NCBI RefSeq assembly: GCF_003762925.1
Contig: NZ_RJUK01000001.1
Span: 124,001-188,000, forward strand
DNA from: Marinimicrobium koreense
GTDB taxonomy: Bacteria > Pseudomonadota > Gammaproteobacteria > Pseudomonadales > Cellvibrionaceae
Direction of reading: 5' to 3'
DNA length: 64,000 nucleotides
The notes under the pieces are model-generated. The model was not told where the DNA came from and made no database searches. It saw nothing but the letters and a program-made list of their open reading frames with translations. Positions 14,641-26,111 of this stretch are shown here, piece by piece (the first letter of the stretch is position 1; every line of letters starts with the position of its first letter). Made by a program: the position numbers and the translations under genes.

Positions 14641-15312
14641 GTGACAGTATTTTCGCAAACCGAGACCGCAATTACCATCGACGGGCCCGTCGGCGGGCTG
14701 GAAGCCCGCATCCAGGCCGGCTCCGAATCCGGCTCCCTCGCCGAGCGGGGGCTGGCGGCGATCGTCTGCCATCCGCATCCGCAGCACGGCGGCACCATGA
14801 GCAACAAGGTGGTCACCACCCTGGTGAGGGCCTATCGTGACCTCGGCGTTGCCACCGTGCGGTTCAATTTCCGGGGTGTTGGGGCCAGTGAGGGCGAGTT
14901 CGATCACGCGGTCGGGGAGGTGGATGACCTGCTGGCGGTGTACTCCTGGCTCTCGGAGCGGCGACCGGACGATAGTGTGCTTTTGGCCGGATTTTCTTTT
15001 GGCTCGGCGGTGGCCGCTGGAGCGGTTTATCGGGTGGGATCGGTCGAACATCTGACGTTGGTCGCACCGCCGGTTGAGCGCTACACCTACGATCGCGATG
15101 GACGCTTCCCGTGTCCCGTCTGTATTGCCCAGGGCGAGCGGGATGACGTGGTGGTGCCGGAGGGCGTGATCCGCTGGAGCGAAACCCGGCTGCAATCGCC
15201 CCATGCCTTGCTGCGCTACCCGGAGGCCGGGCACTTCTTTCACGGTCAGTTGACCGAGCTTAAAGCGGATCTGGCGCGCACCCTGGAGCGGCAACTGGGT
15301 GTCGACTCATGA
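14641..15312 (+). CDS. Alpha/beta hydrolase (COG2945-like)
   Basis: About 223 residues from the GTG at 14641, preceded by GAGGTG; a TTG 48 bases upstream is less plausible. The fold landmarks are HPHPQHGGTM near the N terminus, nucleophile serine in GFSFGS, acidic residue in ERDDVV and histidine in GHFFHG. Members of this family are predicted serine hydrolases of unknown substrate. The stop overlaps the zapE start by 4 bases (ATGA), so the two are translationally coupled. Confidence 0.85.
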   Translation: MTVFSQTETAITIDGPVGGLEARIQAGSESGSLAERGLAAIVCHPHPQHGGTMSNKVVTTLVRAYRDLGVATVRFNFRGVGASEGEFDHAVGEVDDLLAVYSWLSERRPDDSVLLAGFSFGSAVAAGAVYRVGSVEHLTLVAPPVERYTYDRDGRFPCPVCIAQGERDDVVVPEGVIRWSETRLQSPHALLRYPEAGHFFHGQLTELKADLARTLERQLGVDS

Positions 15313-16445
15313 GCCGGCCAGAATTGAAGTACGACACGCCCTACAATCGCTATCAGCGTGATCTGGAGCAGCCCGGGTTCAGCCGGGACCCGGCCCAGGC
15401 GCAGGTGGTGGATCAGTTGCAGGCGCTGTTTGAAGCGCTGGTCGAGCAGGGCGCTCCAAAAACCGGGTTGCCGGGACTGTGGGAACGGTTGCGGCGGCGG
15501 ATTTCAAAGGCACCGATCACACCGGTCACCGGGTTGTATCTGTGGGGCGGCGTCGGGCGGGGCAAAACCTACCTGATGGACAATTTTTACGAGAGTCTGC
15601 CGTTCGAGCAGAAAATGCGCGCCCATTTCCACCGCTTTATGCGCCGGGTGCACGGAGACCTCAAGCAGCTCGATGGCCATAAGAATCCCCTTGAGCAGGT
15701 GGCGGACCGGATCGCCCGGGAAGCCCGGGTCATCTGCTTCGATGAGTTCTTCGTCTCGGACATCACCGATGCGATGATTTTGGGCACTCTGATGCAGGCT
15801 CTGTTCCGCCGCGGCGTGACGCTGGTGGCGACCTCCAATATCCCGCCGGACAACCTTTATAAGGATGGGTTGCAGCGAGCCCGGTTTCTGCCCGCCATTG
15901 AGCAGATCAAGCGTCACACCCGGGTGTTGCAGCTCGATAGCCAGAACGACTACCGGTTGCGGGCGTTGGAGCAGGCCGAGCTGTACCACAGTCCTCTCGA
16001 TGCGAGGGCCGACGAAAGCTTGATGGCGAGCTTCCGCAGCCTGGTTCCAGCGGAGGATGAAATATGCGCCGACCAGGTGCTGGAGGTGGAAGGGCGCCCG
16101 ATTCGGGCCCGCTATCTGGGGGAAGACGTGGCCTGGTTTGACTTTATGGCTCTCTGTGATGGGCCCCGCTCACAAAATGACTATATCGAGCTGGCCCGGG
16201 AGTTCCATGCGGTGGTGGTGAGCAATGTGCCGGCGCTGGGACGGAATAGTGATGATCAGGCCCGGCGCTTCATCAATCTGGTGGACGAGTTTTACGATCG
16301 GCGGGTCAAGCTGGTACTATCCGCCGCCCGGCCGTTGACGCAGATCTACGACGAGGGGCGCCTGAGCTTCGAATTCGAGCGCACCGTCAGCCGCCTGCTG
16401 GAAATGCAGAGCCGCGACTACCTGGCCCAGCCCCACAAGCCCTGA
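15309..16445 (+). CDS. zapE: Cell division ATPase ZapE (AFG1 family)
   Basis: 378 residues with Walker A GGVGRGKT (about residues 80-87) and Walker [11 protein letters not shown], the AFG1/LACE1/ZapE AAA+ signature. ZapE associates with FtsZ late in division in E. coli. Position between the envelope genes zapG/degS and rplM-rpsI is conserved, though here zapE and zapG are divergent rather than colinear. Confidence 0.93.
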
Positions 16446-16485
16446 CGGGGCGGCCGGGTTGGTGGAAAAATCATCAGTTTCCCCC

Positions 16486-16514
16486 TTGAAAACCGGCGAC
16501 GATTTCTATAGTAT
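16486..16514 (+). promoter_or_regulatory. Sigma-70 promoter of rplM-rpsI
   Basis: TTGAAA (16486-16491), a 17-base spacer, then TAGTAT (16509-16514). The distance to the rplM start at 16558 leaves a short leader of about 40 bases with a strong AGGCAGGA ribosome-binding region. Confidence 0.7.
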
Positions 16515-16557
16515 TCGCGCTCTTTTGTGGGAAGCACCTCCTGAGGCAGGAAATAAC

Positions 16558-16986
16558 ATGAAGACTTATAGTGCTAAACCTGAAACGGTCTCTCGCGACT
16601 GGTTCGTCGTTGATGCCGAAGGCAAGACTCTGGGCCGTATGGCTACAGAGATTGCCCGTCGTCTGCGCGGCAAGCACAAGCCCGAGTACACACCTCATGT
16701 GGACACGGGTGATTACATTGTCGTGATCAACGCTGAAAAAGTTCGTGTGACCGGTAAGAAGGCCAGCGACAAGATTTACTACCATCACACCGGTTATATC
16801 GGCGGCATCAAGTCGATCAGCTTTGAAAAGCTGATCCAGAAAGCCCCCGAGCGCACCATCCAGAACGCCGTCAAGGGCATGCTGCCCCGCGGACCTCTGG
16901 GTCGCGCCATGTTCAAAAAACTCAAGGTCTACGCAGGTAACGAGCATCCGCACACTGCGCAGCAGCCTCAAGAACTGACTATCTAA
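16558..16986 (+). CDS. rplM: 50S ribosomal protein L13
   Basis: 142 residues, the standard bacterial length, starting [16 protein letters not shown] at the ATG at 16558; an in-frame upstream extension to 16459 would overlap the promoter and is rejected. The motif [22 protein letters not shown] is diagnostic. L13 is an early assembly protein of the large subunit. rpsI follows 14 bases later. Confidence 0.98.
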
Positions 16987-17000
16987 CCGGGAAGCTGATT

Positions 17001-17393
17001 ATGGCAGTTACTCAATATTACGGTACGGGTCGCCGCAAGACCTCCACCGCCCGGGTGTTCATCGCCCAGGGTAGCGGCAACATCACCGTCAACGACCGTC
17101 CTCTGGACGAGTACTTTGGCCGTGAAGTGGCACGCATGATCGTGCGTCAGCCGCTGGAAAATGTGGAAATGGCTGACAAGTTCGACGTAAAAGTCACCGT
17201 GAAAGGCGGTGGTAGCTTTGGTCAGGCCGGCGCCATCCGCCACGGTCTGACCCGTGCTCTGATGGAATACGACGAAGCGCTGCGTGGCTCTCTGCGTGAA
17301 GCAGGTTACGTAACTCGCGATTCTCGCGCTGTTGAGCGTAAGAAAGTGGGTCTGCGTAAAGCCCGTAAGCGTCCGCAGTTCTCCAAGCGTTAA
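17001..17393 (+). CDS. rpsI: 30S ribosomal protein S9
   Basis: 130 residues, beginning [19 protein letters not shown] and ending in the basic tail RKRPQFSKR that reaches the P-site tRNA. Ends the rplM-rpsI operon before a strong terminator. Confidence 0.98.
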
Positions 17394-17436
17394 TCTGGAG
17401 CTCGCCCCACGGTGTGGGGCGGCGGTACCTCCGAGC

Positions 17437-17477
17437 AAAAAAACGCCCAGGCCCTTCGCTGGCCTGGGCGTTTTTTT
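17437..17477 (+). terminator. Terminator of rplM-rpsI
   Basis: AAAAAAACGCCCAGGCC (17437-17453) and GGCCTGGGCGTTTTTTT (17461-17477) are perfect complements with a 7-base loop, giving a GC-rich stem followed by seven T. Confidence 0.93.
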
Positions 17478-17530
17478 ATGTCCGCCCGCCGTATAACCCA
17501 TTGGCCGAGGGCACGGGGCGCAGCTTATTC

Positions 17531-17559
17531 TTGTAAGCGGCGCGCAATTTCTTTAAGAT
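17531..17559 (+). promoter_or_regulatory. Putative promoter of petA
   Basis: TTGTAA (17531-17536), 17-base spacer, TAAGAT (17554-17559), upstream of petA at 17652. Four to five consensus bases in each hexamer with ideal spacing. It lies just after the rpsI terminator, where a new promoter is needed. Confidence 0.5.
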
Positions 17560-17651
17560 TGGCCATTTTTTACGTCTCAATAACATCATTCTAAATCGTT
17601 GAAATTCAGTGATTTACTGGCCGTCGGAAGCTGTTAGGGGAGAAGATCGTC

Positions 17652-18245
17652 ATGACCGATGACGTTGTCAATAAAACGCGCCGCCGTGTGCTGACCGCTG
17701 CTACCTCGGTAGTAGGGGCAGTGGGCGTAGTGGGTGCAGCGGTACCTTTTGTGGGTTCCTGGAACCCCAGCGCCAAGGCAAAAGCCGCCGGGGCACCGGT
17801 TCGGGCCAACATCGGCAAGATGGAGCCCGGGCAAATGATCACCGTCGAGTGGCGGGGTAAGCCGGTCTACATTGTGCGTCGTACACAAGAGTCCATCGCG
17901 GGGCTGGAAAAAGTTGAGGACGTGCTGCGCGACCCCAACTCGGAGCAACCCCAACAGCCCGAATACGCTCAAAATCAGACTCGCTCCATTCGCGAAGAGT
18001 TCCTGGTGCTGCTCGGTCTGTGCACCCATCTGGGCTGCGCACCGTTGTTTCGCCCGGAAGTGGGCGTTGCTGACCTCGGTGGCGAAAACTGGCAGGGCGG
18101 CTTCTTCTGCCCTTGTCATGGTTCCAAGTTCGATATGGCTGGCCGCGTGTATACAGGCGTACCCGCTCCGTTAAACCTGGAAGTTCCCCCACACCGTTAC
18201 GAGGGCGATAACCTGCTCATCGTGGGCGAGGATCAGGAGGCATAA
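17652..18245 (+). CDS. petA: Ubiquinol-cytochrome c reductase Rieske iron-sulfur subunit
   Basis: 197 residues with an N-terminal twin-arginine region ([15 protein letters not shown]) leading into the single transmembrane anchor, then the Rieske domain. The 2Fe-2S ligands are in [10 protein letters not shown] and CPCHGSKFD. It transfers electrons from ubiquinol in the Qo site to cytochrome c1. It starts the bc1 operon, 2 bases before the cytochrome b-c1 fusion gene. Confidence 0.97.
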
Positions 18246-18247
18246 GA

Positions 18248-20485
18248 ATGAATTGGTTAACTGGATTGTGGCAGTGGGTCGACCAGCGTCTCCCGGTACA
18301 GCGCGCCTGGGACACCCATATGGGCAACTACTACGCGCCCAAAAACTTTAACTTCTGGTATTTCTTCGGCGTTCTGTCCCTGCTGGTGCTGGTCAACCAG
18401 TTGGTGACCGGTATCTGGCTGACGATGAACTACACCCCGACCGCCGAGGGCGCCTTCGCCTCCGTCGAATACATTATGCGTGATGTGGAGTACGGCTGGA
18501 TTCTGCGCTACATGCACTCTACCGGTGCTTCCGCGTTTTTCGTGGTGGTATACCTGCACATGTTCCGCGGCTTGATGTACGGCTCCTACAAGGCGCCGCG
18601 CGAGCTGGTATGGATTTTCGGCATGACCATCTATCTGGTGCTCATGGCGGAAGCCTTCATGGGCTACGTGTTGCCCTGGGGGCAGATGTCCTACTGGGGC
18701 GCTCAGGTGATTGTGTCCCTGTTCGGGGCTATTCCGGTGATCGGCGAAGATCTTGTGCAGTGGATTCGCGGTGATTACCTGATTTCCGGCATTACCCTGA
18801 ACCGCTTCTTCGCCCTGCACGTCGTGGCCCTGCCGATTGTCCTGCTCGGGTTGGTGGTGCTGCATATCCTGGCGCTGCACGAAGTCGGTTCCAACAACCC
18901 CGATGGCGTGGACATCAAGAAGAACAAAGATGAGAACGGTATCCCCAAAGATGGCGTGCAGTTCCATCCGTACTACACGGTTCACGACCTGGTGGGTATT
19001 ACTGTCTTCCTGTTCGCTTTCTGTTTCGTCATGTTTTTCATGCCGGAAATGGGCGGTTTCTTCCTGGAATACGCTAACTTTGAAGAGGCGAACAACCTGA
19101 AGACCCCGGAGCACATTGCCCCGGTGTGGTACTTCACGCCTTTCTACGCCATCTTGCGGGCGGTGACCATTGAAATTGGCCCCTTGAGCGCCAAGTTCCT
19201 CGGTCTGATTGCCATGGGCGCGGCGATTGCCATCCTGTTCGTGCTGCCCTGGTTGGATCGGGCCAAGGCCCGCTCCATGCGCTACAAGGGGCATATCCCG
19301 CGGGTCATGTTGATGGTATTCGCCGCCATGTTTGTGGTGCTGGGTTACCTGGGCGTCAAATCACCGACCACTGGGCGCACCGTATTGTCCCAGTTGGCGA
19401 CGGTGTTCTACTTTGCCTATTTCATCACCATGCCGATCTGGACCAGCAGCCGCCCGCCGGAGCAGCGCTCGCAGATCGCGCGAGTCCTGTCGTTCGCCAT
19501 TTGCTGGGGTTTTGCCCTGATCTTCTTGGTAATGGCTCTGAATGGAATCACAGGGGACAGCGATGTGCCGGTCTTCCTGCGCCTGTTTGGTCTGGTTCTG
19601 GCCGCCGTGTTCGCGGTGCTCCCCTGGTTGGCGGATCGCGATAGTGAGCACCCCGTGCCAGAGCGTGTACAGATGAAAGGCTTGCCGCTGCGCTTGGTGC
19701 TGGGTGGTCTGGCGCTGTTCGCAGTACTCGTGGTGGTTCCGATCAAGGCTGTGGGCGCGGGTGCTGGCGGATGTGGTTCCATTCCCTGCGATATCATGGA
19801 ACCGGACCTGGACAATAAAGAGTCCCTGCAGCGTGGTGCCAAGTACTTCGTGAACTACTGTATGGGCTGCCACTCCGCCAAGTTTTCACGCTATGAGCGG
19901 GTGGCGGACGATCTCGGTATTCCCCACGATGTGGCGCGCAACAACCTGATTTTCGGCGATCAGGAGATCGGTAGTCTGATGACCACCTCCATGACGAAGG
20001 AGCAGGGTAAGCAGTGGTTTGGGGTTCAGCCGCCGGATCTGACTCTGGTGGCCCGGTCTCGCAACCCGGAGTGGCTGTATACTTACCTTCGTAACTTCTA
20101 TAAGGATGAGAGCCGTCCCTTCGGTGTGAATAATCGGGTGTTTGAAAACGTTGGTATGCCCCACGTCATGCTGGACCTTCAAGGCCTGCTGGAGTGTTCC
20201 GCCGGTCCCCAGCTGGACAGCCATGGACACATTGTGCGCGATAGCGCGGGCAATCCAGTCATGGATGAGGAGTGTGGTAGCCTGGTGGAAGGTGACATTG
20301 AAGGCAGCCTGTCGCAGGAAGAGTTTGACCAGGTGATCTACGACCTGGTGAATTTCCTGGAGTATCTGGGTGAGCCCGCAGCCATGGACCGTGAACGGGT
20401 GGGTATCTTCGTGCTGTTGTTCCTGTCCGTCCTGTTTGTGTTTGCTTACCTGCTCAACCGCGAGTACTGGAAGGGAATTCACTAA
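18248..20485 (+). CDS. Cytochrome b - cytochrome c1 fusion of the bc1 complex
   Basis: One uninterrupted 745-residue frame. Residues 1 to about 400 are cytochrome b: haem histidines H90, H104, H191, H206 and Qo motif PVWY (292-295). About residues 405-475 add two further hydrophobic segments not typical of the b subunit. Another hydrophobic stretch (about 481-500) resembles a c1 signal/anchor. Cytochrome c1 follows, with haem site CMGCH (538-542), axial methionine probably M637 (ENVGMPHV) and a C-terminal anchor (717-738). In most gammaproteobacteria petB and petC are separate; a comparable b-c1 polyprotein, cleaved after export, is known as fbcH in Bradyrhizobium. Whether this one is cleaved is not visible. 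Confidence 0.95.
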   Translation: MNWLTGLWQWVDQRLPVQRAWDTHMGNYYAPKNFNFWYFFGVLSLLVLVNQLVTGIWLTMNYTPTAEGAFASVEYIMRDVEYGWILRYMHSTGASAFFVVVYLHMFRGLMYGSYKAPRELVWIFGMTIYLVLMAEAFMGYVLPWGQMSYWGAQVIVSLFGAIPVIGEDLVQWIRGDYLISGITLNRFFALHVVALPIVLLGLVVLHILALHEVGSNNPDGVDIKKNKDENGIPKDGVQFHPYYTVHDLVGITVFLFAFCFVMFFMPEMGGFFLEYANFEEANNLKTPEHIAPVWYFTPFYAILRAVTIEIGPLSAKFLGLIAMGAAIAILFVLPWLDRAKARSMRYKGHIPRVMLMVFAAMFVVLGYLGVKSPTTGRTVLSQLATVFYFAYFITMPIWTSSRPPEQRSQIARVLSFAICWGFALIFLVMALNGITGDSDVPVFLRLFGLVLAAVFAVLPWLADRDSEHPVPERVQMKGLPLRLVLGGLALFAVLVVVPIKAVGAGAGGCGSIPCDIMEPDLDNKESLQRGAKYFVNYCMGCHSAKFSRYERVADDLGIPHDVARNNLIFGDQEIGSLMTTSMTKEQGKQWFGVQPPDLTLVARSRNPEWLYTYLRNFYKDESRPFGVNNRVFENVGMPHVMLDLQGLLECSAGPQLDSHGHIVRDSAGNPVMDEECGSLVEGDIEGSLSQEEFDQVIYDLVNFLEYLGEPAAMDRERVGIFVLLFLSVLFVFAYLLNREYWKGIH

Positions 20486-20499
20486 ATTCGAATAACGGT

Positions 20500-20519
20500 G
20501 GGGCGCCTGTGGGCGCCCC
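20500..20519 (+). terminator. GC hairpin between the bc1 operon and sspA
   Basis: GGGGCGCC (20500-20507) pairs with GGCGCCCC (20512-20519) over a 4-base loop, 14 bases after the petB/C stop. No T run follows, so it may be a weak or factor-assisted terminator, or an mRNA-end stabiliser. Confidence 0.4.
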
Positions 20520-20553
20520 GGCTTGATCACTGGGTAATTTGAGGTAATACACA

Positions 20554-21189
20554 ATGGGTGTGGTGACCAAACGCTCATCCATGACGCTGTTTTCCGATGG
20601 TTCTGATCATTACAGCCATCGGGTTAGAATTGTGTTGTCGGAGAAAGGGGTATCGTCGGATATTATTGATGTCGATCCCAAAAACAAGCCGCAGGAACTG
20701 GCGGACCTCAACCCCTATAACAGTCTGCCCACGCTGGTGGACCGGGACTTGGCCCTGTACGAGTCCAAAGTGATCATGGAGTACCTGGATGAGCGTTTCC
20801 CGCATCCTCCGCTCCTGCCGGTATACCCGGTTGCCCGGGCTCAGAGCCGGCTGTGGATGTACCGGCTGGAGCGTGATTGGGCGCCGCTGGTAGACACCAT
20901 TCTCACCAGCAAGAGTAAGGACACCGTGCTAAAGGCGCGTAAGGCCCTGCGCGACAGTCTGCTGGCCATCTCGCCGATCTTTGCCGAAATGCCGTTTTTC
21001 ATGAGCGATGAGTTCACCATCGTGGACTGCTGCCTGGCACCGATCCTCTGGCGCTTGCCGATGCTGGATATTGACCTTGGCAAGGGGCGCCAGGCCCAGC
21101 CGTTGCTGACGTACCAGAAGCGACTGTTCGAACGTGAGGGATTTCGTAAGAGCCTCACGGAAGTCGAGCGCGACATGGGGGCTCACTAG
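20554..21189 (+). CDS. sspA: Stringent starvation protein A
   Basis: 211 residues of glutathione-S-transferase fold: a thioredoxin-like N-terminal half ([38 protein letters not shown]) and an all-helical C-terminal half. SspA binds RNA polymerase and affects stationary-phase and acid-stress transcription; it lacks GST activity in E. coli. Position after the bc1 operon and before sspB is conserved. Confidence 0.94.
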
Positions 21190-21208
21190 CCTCCATTGCG
21201 TGTTGTCC

Positions 21209-21225
21209 AGCCCCCAAAAGGGGCT
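21209..21225 (+). promoter_or_regulatory. Small hairpin between sspA and sspB
   Basis: AGCCCC (21209-21214), loop CAAAA, GGGGCT (21220-21225), followed by TTCAT. Lies 36 bases before sspB. Could attenuate or stabilise; no strong T tract. Confidence 0.35.
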
Positions 21226-21260
21226 TTCATGCCCTTCGATACCCTATCGGGAGACGTTCT

Positions 21261-21656
21261 ATGGCCATGACCTCAAGCCGTCCTTACATGATTCGAGCGC
21301 TCTATGAGTGGATCGTGGATAACGGCTGCACCCCCTATATCCTGGTGGATGCCCAGGGGCAAGGCGTTGAAGTGCCTCAGCAGCACGTCAATAAAGACGG
21401 GCAGATTGTACTCAATATCAATCCGACGGCAGTCAAAGACCTGTTCATCGGTCTGGAGCAGATCAACTTCAATGCCCGCTTTGGCGGCATACCGACGGAT
21501 CTGGTGATCCCCTGTGGCTCAGTACTGGGTATTTATGCCCGGGAGAATGGCCAGGGCATGGTATTCGAGCATGAGCCCAATCCCGAGCCTCCCAAGCCGG
21601 ATTCCGAACCGAAGAAAGACGCGCAAAAACGGCCCAACCTCAAGGTCGTCAAATAA
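21261..21656 (+). CDS. sspB: ClpXP specificity-enhancing factor SspB
   Basis: 131 residues. The folded domain (about 5-110) opens SSRPYMIRALYEWIVDNGCTPYILVD, which is characteristic. A charged, flexible linker ends in RPNLKVVK, the ClpX-binding tail. SspB tethers ssrA-tagged peptides to ClpXP. It pairs with sspA upstream. Confidence 0.95.
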   Translation: MAMTSSRPYMIRALYEWIVDNGCTPYILVDAQGQGVEVPQQHVNKDGQIVLNINPTAVKDLFIGLEQINFNARFGGIPTDLVIPCGSVLGIYARENGQGMVFEHEPNPEPPKPDSEPKKDAQKRPNLKVVK

Positions 21657-23825: not shown

Positions 23826-26111
23826 ATGTCAGAGCGACCTTCCACCCCGGATGCCCGGGGAAGCTTGATGCCGAATGCGGAGCAACGTGCTCGTCTGCGC
23901 AAGGTACGCAAATTCAAGGACGGCCTGTCCCGCTACGGAGTCGGCACCGCCGGTATGATGGTGGTTGGCGCCTTGGCGCTGATTTTCATCTACCTGTTCT
24001 CGGAAGTGGCGCCGTTACTGCGCAGCAGCAGTATCGAGCCGACTGCCGACTACCCCTTCGCACTGACCAGCGAGGCCGATCCGTCCGCCCACCTCGTGCT
24101 CGAACGTTACGAGGAGATGGGGGCATCGTTCAGCGAGGCCGGGCAGGTGCACTTCTTCAACGTTGATTCGGGGCTCGCCCTCAAAACCTTTGAGGTTCCT
24201 CGCAACCAGGGTGTCTCGGCCACGGCGGTTGATACCAGTGTGCCGAATCAGCAGCTGGTGGCCTACGGTTTCTCCGATGGCTCGGTATCTGTCGTCCAGG
24301 AGACCTATAGCCTCAGCTATCCCAATGACCAGCGCCTGGTGACTCCGGGGCTGGATTACCCACTGGGTGAGGAACCCGTCACGCTGGACGAGCAGGGCCG
24401 CGCCTTGCGCGAAGTCGCCGTGCAGAGCACGGATGCCGGCCTGATGGTTGCAGGCGTCACTGAAGACAATCAGATCCTTGTGGGGCGTTACCGGATGAAC
24501 CAGGGACTGTTCGGCAACGGCGGTAGCGTATCCGGTGATAGCTATTCCGTGCCCTCACTACCCGGTGGTGCCCAGGTGGAGCACTTGATCGTCGATGCCA
24601 CTGGGCGTTTTTTGGTGGTCGCGGACGATCGGGAACAACTGCATTTTTACCATGTCGAGCGCGCTGAAGATGCCCGGCTGATCGAGACGCTCCCCACCGA
24701 GCGTGGCCAGGTAAACGCTCTGGAGTTTCTGGTCGGTACGCTGTCGGTGATCATCGGTACGGACCAGGGGGCGGTCAGCCAGTGGTTTATCATTCGGGAT
24801 GATAACAATCAATTCCATCTGACGCCGGTGCGGGACTTTGGCTCCATGCCGGGCTCGGTGACCACTATCGCACCGGAATATACCCGAAAAGGTTTCGCGG
24901 CCGGTGACGACCAAGGCAATGTCGGCCTTTTCTACGGGACATCGTCGAGCACCCTGGTGATCGAGTCGGTCACGGATCAGCCCATTTCGCAACTGGCATT
25001 GTCGCCCATTAACGGCCGCTTGCTGGCGCTGGATAACGACCAGCGGTTGCATATAGCCTCGGTCTGGAATGAGCATCCGGAAATTTCCATGAGCTCACTC
25101 TGGCAGAAGGTCTGGTATGAAGGCCGACAGCAGCCCGAGTACGTCTGGCAGGCTTCCTCTGGCGCGGATGACTCCGAGGCGAAAATGAGCCTGGTGCCGT
25201 TGTCCATCGGTACGCTCAAAGCCGCTTTCTACGCGATGCTGTTTGCCATTCCTCTGGGTGTGATGGGTGCCATTTACACCGCCTACTTCATGACCCCCAA
25301 GCTGCGCGGCGTGGTTAAACCCACCATTGAGATCATGGAAGCCCTGCCGACGGTCATTTTGGGTTTTCTTGCGGGTCTGTGGCTGGCGCCATTCCTGGAA
25401 AATCACCTGCCGGCGGTTTTCAGTATTCTGATTTTCCTGCCGGTCACCATGTTGGCCGTAGGGTTGTTGTGGAGCCGGTTGCCATCGGCGATTCGCAGTA
25501 ATGTCCCGGAAGGTTGGGAGGCCGCCATTCTGATTGTTCCCATCCTGCTGACCGGATGGGCCTGTATCGCGATCAGCCCACATGTCGAAGTGTGGTTCTT
25601 TGATGGCAGCATGCGCCAGTGGCTGACCAACAACAACATTGACTATGATCAGCGCAATGCTCTGGTCGTGGGTATTGCCATGGGCTTTGCGGTGATTCCC
25701 ACCATTTTCTCGATCGCCGAAGACGCGGTGTTCAACGTACCTCGCCATTTGACCCAGGGGTCTCTGGCCCTCGGGGCAACCCGCTGGCAGACCGTAATAG
25801 GTGTGATTCTGCCCACCGCCAGCCCGGGTATCTTCTCGGCGGTGATGATGGGCTTTGGTCGTGCAGTGGGTGAAACCATGATTGTGTTGATGGCCACCGG
25901 CAACAGCCCGGTGCTGAACTTCAATATATTCGAAGGTATGCGCACCCTGTCCGCCAACGTGGCGGTGGAACTGCCGGAAACCGCCATTGGCAGCACGCAT
26001 TTCCGGGTGTTGTTCCTCGCCGCTCTGGTGCTGTTGGCCCTGACATTTGTGGTCAACACTCTGGCCGAAGTCGTTCGCCAGCGTTTGCGTAAACGCTACA
26101 GCAACCTGTAA
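23826..26111 (+). CDS. pstC: Phosphate ABC transporter permease PstC, extended form
   Basis: 761 residues, more than twice the roughly 320 of E. coli PstC. After a cytoplasmic N terminus and a first membrane helix (about 41-62) there is a periplasmic region of nearly 380 residues whose repeating beta-rich segments (FFNVDSGLALKTFEV, GFSDGSVSVVQETYS, LHFYHVERAED, GNVGLFYGTSSS) resemble a WD40-like propeller. The ordinary permease domain follows (about 455-761), with the EAA loop around LGATRWQTVIGVILPTASPG. Long PstC proteins are known in marine gammaproteobacteria; the propeller's role is not established. Confidence 0.92.
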   Translation: MSERPSTPDARGSLMPNAEQRARLRKVRKFKDGLSRYGVGTAGMMVVGALALIFIYLFSEVAPLLRSSSIEPTADYPFALTSEADPSAHLVLERYEEMGASFSEAGQVHFFNVDSGLALKTFEVPRNQGVSATAVDTSVPNQQLVAYGFSDGSVSVVQETYSLSYPNDQRLVTPGLDYPLGEEPVTLDEQGRALREVAVQSTDAGLMVAGVTEDNQILVGRYRMNQGLFGNGGSVSGDSYSVPSLPGGAQVEHLIVDATGRFLVVADDREQLHFYHVERAEDARLIETLPTERGQVNALEFLVGTLSVIIGTDQGAVSQWFIIRDDNNQFHLTPVRDFGSMPGSVTTIAPEYTRKGFAAGDDQGNVGLFYGTSSSTLVIESVTDQPISQLALSPINGRLLALDNDQRLHIASVWNEHPEISMSSLWQKVWYEGRQQPEYVWQASSGADDSEAKMSLVPLSIGTLKAAFYAMLFAIPLGVMGAIYTAYFMTPKLRGVVKPTIEIMEALPTVILGFLAGLWLAPFLENHLPAVFSILIFLPVTMLAVGLLWSRLPSAIRSNVPEGWEAAILIVPILLTGWACIAISPHVEVWFFDGSMRQWLTNNNIDYDQRNALVVGIAMGFAVIPTIFSIAEDAVFNVPRHLTQGSLALGATRWQTVIGVILPTASPGIFSAVMMGFGRAVGETMIVLMATGNSPVLNFNIFEGMRTLSANVAVELPETAIGSTHFRVLFLAALVLLALTFVVNTLAEVVRQRLRKRYSNL

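Follow-up and report, generated by a model that had tools for sequence, protein, structure and literature searches.

An optional pair of extra helices in the cytochrome b part of a fused cytochrome b-c1 protein, and its probable exchange together with helices 7 and 8

Cytochrome b is usually regarded as an invariant eight-helix protein, and eight transmembrane helices are its usual number and not a catalytic requirement. In Bradyrhizobium it is made as a fused b-c1 protein that has a signal-like helix and is cleaved. The best sequence match for both halves of the protein described here is the bc1 complex of Pseudomonas aeruginosa, part of the bc1-cbb3 supercomplex 8smr. There b and c1 are two separate chains, and the b chain of 403 residues has no hairpin and can be aligned only to residues 8-401 of our protein. 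Fusions of b and c1 have been described from Bradyrhizobiaceae, some Rhodospirillales and Planctomycetes, and their frequency across proteobacterial lineages has been discussed as well (PMC4013037). Our protein shares with the Bradyrhizobium fbcH type the use of a single chain for b and c1, but the excerpts of that survey considered here mention no extra helices in cytochrome b (PMC4013037), whereas our protein has two.

The gene was found in a window of 64,000 nucleotides of Marinimicrobium koreense DNA, the whole stretch that was analyzed (Table 1). As in the fbcH type, b and c1 share one open frame and the Rieske gene adjoins it. Pfam assigns three domains to the 745 residues, Cytochrome_B at 27-214 and Cytochrom_B_C at 280-389 for the cytochrome b part (PF00033 with 220.6 bits and PF00032 with 125.5 bits) and Cytochrom_C1 at 523-742, and the cytochrome c1 family has this single occurrence in the genome. 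The first-pass annotation had proposed one intact b-c1 frame and had named a sequencing error hiding a stop or start as a way in which this could be wrong. Two genomes of the same genus, with 98% (G252) and 88% (G251) identity, align across residues 1-745 in the same open frame and are free of stops. This makes an artefact of sequencing or assembly so extremely improbable that we consider a hidden stop to be excluded, and the frame stands as proposed.

The neighbors at positions 15309-21656 of the window are an AFG1-like ATPase, ribosomal proteins L13 and S9 and the Rieske subunit, followed by a glutathione-S-transferase-like protein, which by its position we take to be SspA, and SspB. Further along, at 23826-26111, is a transporter permease with BPD_transp_1 at 478-756 and a long N-terminal part that has weak, sub-cut-off matches to several beta-propeller models.

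Table 1. Features of the fused gene and the adjoining Rieske gene, with positions in the window and residues of the 745-residue protein
Feature	Position	Strand	Basis
Rieske iron-sulphur subunit (petA)	17652..18245	+	directly 5' of b-c1; PF10399, PF00355; TIGR01416, 233 bits
Fused cytochrome b-c1 gene	18248..20485	+	745 aa, ATG start, one ORF
Cytochrome b core, residues 1-399, eight helices	18248..19444	+	8smr_I aligned to 8-401; Pfam
b-haem ligand span H90, H104, H191, H206	18515..18865	+	each H in 129/129
Qo motif PVWY, residues 292-295	19121..19132	+	PVWY in 125/129
Helices 7 and 8, residues 345-399, co-varying with the hairpin	19280..19444	+	site, pair, tree and nucleotide comparisons
Insert of 69 residues (400-468), two extra helices	19445..19651	+	alignment; 6 residues in hairpin-less fused relatives
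Extra helix 9, residues 413-431	19484..19540	+	hydropathy; AlphaFold model helix 409-436
Extra helix 10, residues 440-458	19565..19621	+	hydropathy; AlphaFold model helix 442-463
Cytochrome b tail PVPERV, residues 469-474, conserved	19652..19669	+	alignment; cytoplasmic side inferred
Helix 11, c1 signal-like helix, residues 481-503	19688..19756	+	hydropathy (481-499); AlphaFold model 481-503
Predicted signal-peptidase I site V502-G503-A504, cut after A504	19751..19759	+	motif conservation
Cytochrome c1 domain, residues 505-745	19760..20482	+	Pfam; 8smr_J
Haem c motif CMGCH, residues 538-542	19859..19873	+	both C and H in 129/129
M637, haem c methionine position	20156..20158	+	129/129
c1 C-terminal anchor helix, residues 718-736	20399..20455	+	hydropathy; AlphaFold model helix 712-744

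The cofactor residues named in the first-pass annotation (four haem histidines, PVWY, CMGCH) are all present, as is the C-terminal anchor. Cytochrome b has its N- and C-terminal domains with the four haem histidines, and c1 has the CXXCH motif, the distal methionine position and the anchor helix. The four b-haem histidines, both haem c cysteines, H542 and M637 are invariant in the 129 aligned fused sequences; we take PVWY to be an accepted variant of the Qo motif PEWY, and M637 is presumably the methionine ligand of haem c. Since the full cofactor set is present, the protein can be read as a working complex III core. The departure from the usual eight helices is in the two more that lie ahead of the b tail. 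A segment of roughly 100 residues between b and c1, with two extra helices and then a c1 signal stretch, had been noted before, and residues 400-504 bear this out. Hydropathy of residues 400-520 gives the segments 413-431, 440-458 and 481-499, of which the first two are the extra helices and the third is the signal-like helix of c1. The AlphaFold model is mediocre (mean pLDDT 63) and served helix assignment only; it has helices at 349-368 and 375-393 in addition to the four listed in Table 1, and its best fold match is the cytochrome b of 8smr.

At the predicted cut site V502 is kept in 117 of 129 fused sequences and A504 in 104, with either A or S at position 504 in 119. Because this V-G-A motif at 502-504 is so well kept, c1 is probably released while helix 11 stays on cytochrome b. 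Near the mature N-terminus of c1 (window 19772-19792, residues 509-515) there is also a CGxxxCD cysteine pair, a possible disulphide, of which 101 of the 129 sequences have both cysteines and 28 have neither.

The fusion itself is ordinary in its own family and of an already known kind. The gene is present in 144 of 144 family genomes and, by frame length, is fused in at least 141, with three not classed (G196 and G245 are cut off by a contig end, and the frame of G217 is broken). As read from match range and frame length and not from all 144 translations, the family splits into 95 long forms, in which one match covers the entire 745-residue query (frames of 738-771 aa), one form of 815 aa, and 45 short forms without the hairpin (624-715 aa). 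The likeness to Bradyrhizobium drawn in the first-pass annotation is therefore sound, and the fusion is real, but it was presented as an exception to separate genes and in its own family it is the rule. The suggestion that the two helices are peculiar to this version must be dropped, given the 95 family members that cover the whole query and the one that has four extra helices.

The insert takes few lengths. Of 134 aligned fused sequences, 51 have exactly 6 residues between the end of helix 8 (MPxWT) and PVPERV, 82 have 59-82 and one has 138, and no other lengths were seen among them. These 134 are a non-random sample, made up of 25 of the 30 loci of one search, 29 new loci of the family search, 60 chosen places and 20 named loci; removal of five locus repeats (L121-L124, L126) leaves the 129 used elsewhere. 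By hydropathy, the number of helix-like segments in residues 400-520 is one, the c1 signal helix, for every short form (50 of 50), three for every long form (78 of 78) and five for the extra-long L087, so that the number of added helices is even in all 129. K+R per loop comes to 2.14, 0.56 and 3.50 in the 78 long forms, and because of these charges we place the hairpin loop in the periplasm. In the established topology of cytochrome b both ends are cytoplasmic. An odd number of added helices would then put c1 on the wrong side of the membrane, which would explain the even-number rule, and with 0, 2 or 4 added helices c1 should always emerge in the periplasm.

In the extra-long L087 (G309), a fused b-c1 of 815 residues, the insert has 138 residues and four helix-like segments. 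On visual comparison the first and last of these look like the two-helix insert of the sister sequence L099, as though a second hairpin had gone into the middle of an existing one.

Between the window and four long family relatives the hairpin is 31-39% identical, versus 79-85% for cytochrome b. Being far less conserved than b and absent from many relatives, the hairpin would not be needed for catalysis. It could belong to the fusion, as a spacer or a second signal for the export of c1; the helices do sit between b and c1 in the window, and an even count suits c1 export. This becomes very unlikely when the relatives are considered, since fused forms without the hairpin are common (45 of 144 family genomes), the PVPERV tail of b lies after it, and cytochrome b proteins that are not fused at all have a hairpin at the same site. 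Two of these (L219 and L221) were found among the 14 of 15 chosen places that were read. With the C-terminal part of L219 as the query, at least 178 of 229 sampled class genomes match, and in at least 19 of the 229 the match runs through at least 113 of the 126 residues without a stop. Seventeen of 19 such loci have a readable frame (L298 and L308 are the other two), and all 17 are unfused and all 17 have the insert. After helix 6 there are four helix-like segments in 16 of them, and three in L219 at the threshold used. The first-pass annotation had allowed that relatives might have separate genes with the helices in neither; they are instead found in unfused cytochrome b too. Because unfused b has them in the same place and the b tail follows them, on sequence grounds the extra helices belong to cytochrome b, and not to c1 or to a fusion linker.

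Most of the unfused proteins that were compared have no hairpin: 62 of 64, including those of Pseudomonas, Halomonas and Marinobacter, end 1-5 residues past the tail, the exceptions being L020, which belongs to family f14, and a Methylomonas protein whose end is longer. A search with profile A3 gave matches in at least 150 of 274 class genomes and in 54 of 299 phylum genomes. Betaproteobacterial cytochrome b proteins of about 475 residues were considered as a source of the insert and rejected, as their tails end at most 5 residues past a PVPERV-like motif and have no C-terminal hairpin. A second, apparently unrelated hairpin type occurs in the unfused gammaproteobacterial b of L221, L230, L293-L297 and L299-L307, and has a D close to where helix 9 ends, in many cases as YD..R.

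In family f14 (L020, L201-L204) b and c1 are separate and b stops after one extra helix. In L020, L201 and L202 the c1 gene comes next in the same frame and starts with its own signal-like stretch. When the extra helix of f14 was compared with the signal helix of fused proteins, five of nine pairings beat all 1000 shuffles, with up to 15 of 38 residues identical, and the scores of the remaining four were reached by 14, 16, 46 and 365 of 1000 shuffles. The arrangement looks as if the fused protein had been split just past the presumed signal-peptidase cut point, and f14 could either have come from the fusion by a natural split or have preceded it.

The origin of the hairpin is clearest in L219. 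Its hairpin scores 84 against its own helices 7-8, a value reached by none of 5000 block shuffles (maximum 69), and windows of the same b that do not overlap helices 7-8 score at most 24 against the hairpin. This internal match establishes, at the level of sequence, a duplication of helices 7-8 as the origin of the L219 hairpin. The duplication looks local, because in the order to which this genome belongs 56 of 60 genomes match and L219 alone spans the hairpin. The same origin is likely for the hairpin type of the window. A profile of 58 such hairpins aligns with helices 7-8 in register for 51 columns and scores 19.9, equaled or exceeded by one of 1000 column shuffles and by none with 40 or more columns. 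The profile of our own family alone scores 14.8, and that of the other families alone 23.8. The hairpins of both groups are clearly one family, with a score of 97 against each other for rows taken from one joint alignment and a null maximum of 29.8 in 200 shuffles. The profile also matches the end of helix 6 (score 20.2, 7 of 1000 shuffles), and helix 6 was rejected as the duplicated source since that match is a motif of 10 columns only.

A problem for a single explanation is that other hairpins lack this similarity. For L221, the score of the hairpin against its own helices 7-8 was reached by 1970 of 2000 shuffles. The profile of the commoner unfused type had no match beyond chance either to its own helices 7-8 (reached by 68 of 300 shuffles) or to the window hairpin (93 of 300). 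The hairpins therefore need not share one origin. It could also be that the window hairpin came from fusion with an unrelated small membrane subunit, as would fit both this class-wide type and the weak similarity to helices 7-8 in our own family. We consider this unlikely, given the clear internal copy in L219, the in-register match of the window type over 51 columns, and a search of the genome itself with profile A3 that yields one match at its threshold and nothing else.

The hairpin is also connected to helices 7-8 by how both are distributed. On a tree of the 129 fused proteins with the insert removed, the long or short state changes at least 14 times. The fewest changes are 18 on a tree of b residues 1-344, 20 for c1 and 17-21 for six other 55-residue blocks, but only 2 for helices 7-8, and 9 when the ten most diagnostic sites are taken out. 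Diagnostic sites are concentrated at residues 349-361 in helix 7, at 379-397 in helix 8 and in the six-residue connector. Ten pairs of opposite state, seven of which are congeneric, have 86-100% identity in the two halves of b 1-344 and 60-71% in helices 7-8, compared with 84-98% for helices 7-8 in 12 same-state pairs; these pairs were hand-picked and do not count L087/L099, which is extra-long versus long. The contrast is well illustrated by L049 and L065, which differ at 3 of 344 positions in b 1-344 and at 17 of 55 in helices 7-8, and whose neighboring proteins are 100% (S9), 93% (Rieske), 97% (SspA) and 94% (SspB) identical.

At the ten sites, which were picked on largely the same fused sequences they were scored on, the expected version of helices 7-8 is present in 76 of the 79 long and 56 of the 58 short fused sequences, leaving 3 and 2 with the other. 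The hairpin is by these comparisons tightly associated with a distinct version of helices 7-8. All 54 unfused gammaproteobacterial cytochromes b that were scored are short-like, which makes the short state the likely ancestral one; 6 of 12 hairpin-less betaproteobacterial proteins score as long-like. The short form L207 (G096) has helices 7-8 of the long type, likely the trace of a plain hairpin deletion.

At the nucleotide level the nearest relative of helices 7-8 has the same state in all 12 cases examined, and in 7 of the 12 it is from another genus. For b 1-344 the nearest relative is an opposite-state congener in five (L065, L073, L094, L049, L097), an opposite-state sequence of another genus in one (L022) and a same-state sequence in six. 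We consider it most likely that helices 7-8 and the hairpin behave as one module that is exchanged by recombination. Co-adaptation, where the hairpin was gained or lost many times and helices 7-8 mutated alike each time to fit it, is the main rival because silent sites, being nearly saturated between species, are a weak test of recombination. The contrast of long and short is also mostly in about ten sites, and hairpin and helix 7-8 version can be separated, as in L007-L009 (long with short-like helices) and L207. We nevertheless find co-adaptation somewhat unlikely. Of five within-genus pairs of opposite state, four have different residues at every one of the ten diagnostic sites and one at eight of them. 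In the other 45 positions of helices 7-8 these pairs have a further 6-11 differences, versus 2-23 over the 344 positions of the remainder of b. With the ten sites removed, the tree of helices 7-8 has only 9 changes versus 17-21 for other blocks, and the nearest helix 7-8 tracts are those of the same state even across genera.

The helix-face moment of the diagnostic sites was not significant (p 0.16 and 0.07). The short forms L061 and L062 of genus g105 are set beside genus g3 by the bc1 tree, the nucleotide neighbors of L061 in b 1-344 are L062 and the long g105 members, and the flanking genes point both ways on a transfer of the whole gene.

Put together, these comparisons suggest a precursor of the bc1 complex (complex III) of the fbcH type, with the eight helices of b, the hairpin, a signal-like helix, the c1 domain and the c1 anchor in this order. 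With an even helix count the b tail would stay cytoplasmic, and the helix after it could export c1. Signal peptidase would cut behind A504, which would release c1 while b retained helix 11, for 11 helices in all. The hairpin would have been born by tandem duplication of helices 7-8 and would pack against the face of these helices, and both would be swapped across species as a module by homologous recombination inside a gene that is otherwise inherited vertically. Its role is probably that of a built-in accessory element of the membrane part, stabilizing the complex or docking a partner, and dispensable for catalysis. To this reading as a whole, from the precursor and its even hairpin to the cut after A504, the duplication, the exchange and the accessory role, we assign a probability of about 0.7. 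At around even odds we would put a broader statement, that gammaproteobacterial cytochrome b has at one site an optional element of two helices (once four) that arose at least once from helices 7-8, is swapped with them like a cassette, is restricted to even numbers where c1 is fused, and acts as a built-in supernumerary subunit.

Cytochrome b ranks among the most conserved respiratory membrane proteins, and an optional, recurrent hairpin in it provides natural material for two questions, why bc1 complexes gain helices when three core subunits are enough, and what limits membrane topology sets to the fusion of genes. The genera that have both forms offer close natural comparisons. Forms of cytochrome b with ten helices also bear on the annotation and the structural models of complex III, which is a drug target. 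No description of extra helices in cytochrome b was found in the titles and abstracts searched, a search that left subscription journals mostly outside. The fusion is known, and on this basis what appears to be new is the optional, even-numbered and probably exchangeable hairpin.

Membrane helices added to the three-subunit core do have precedents, which resemble our case in this respect. In the excerpts of the literature considered here, the complex of Rhodobacter sphaeroides is three times as active with its subunit IV, and the c1 of Aquifex has an extra N-terminal helix (PMC10041115). These examples indicate that bc1 complexes do take accessory helices. Subunit IV is a separate protein that sits on the helices of the Rieske subunit and c1 (PMC10041115), whereas the helices described here form part of cytochrome b itself and lie between its helix 8 and its tail. 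In Aquifex, by the same excerpts, the extra helix is fused to a core subunit (PMC10041115).
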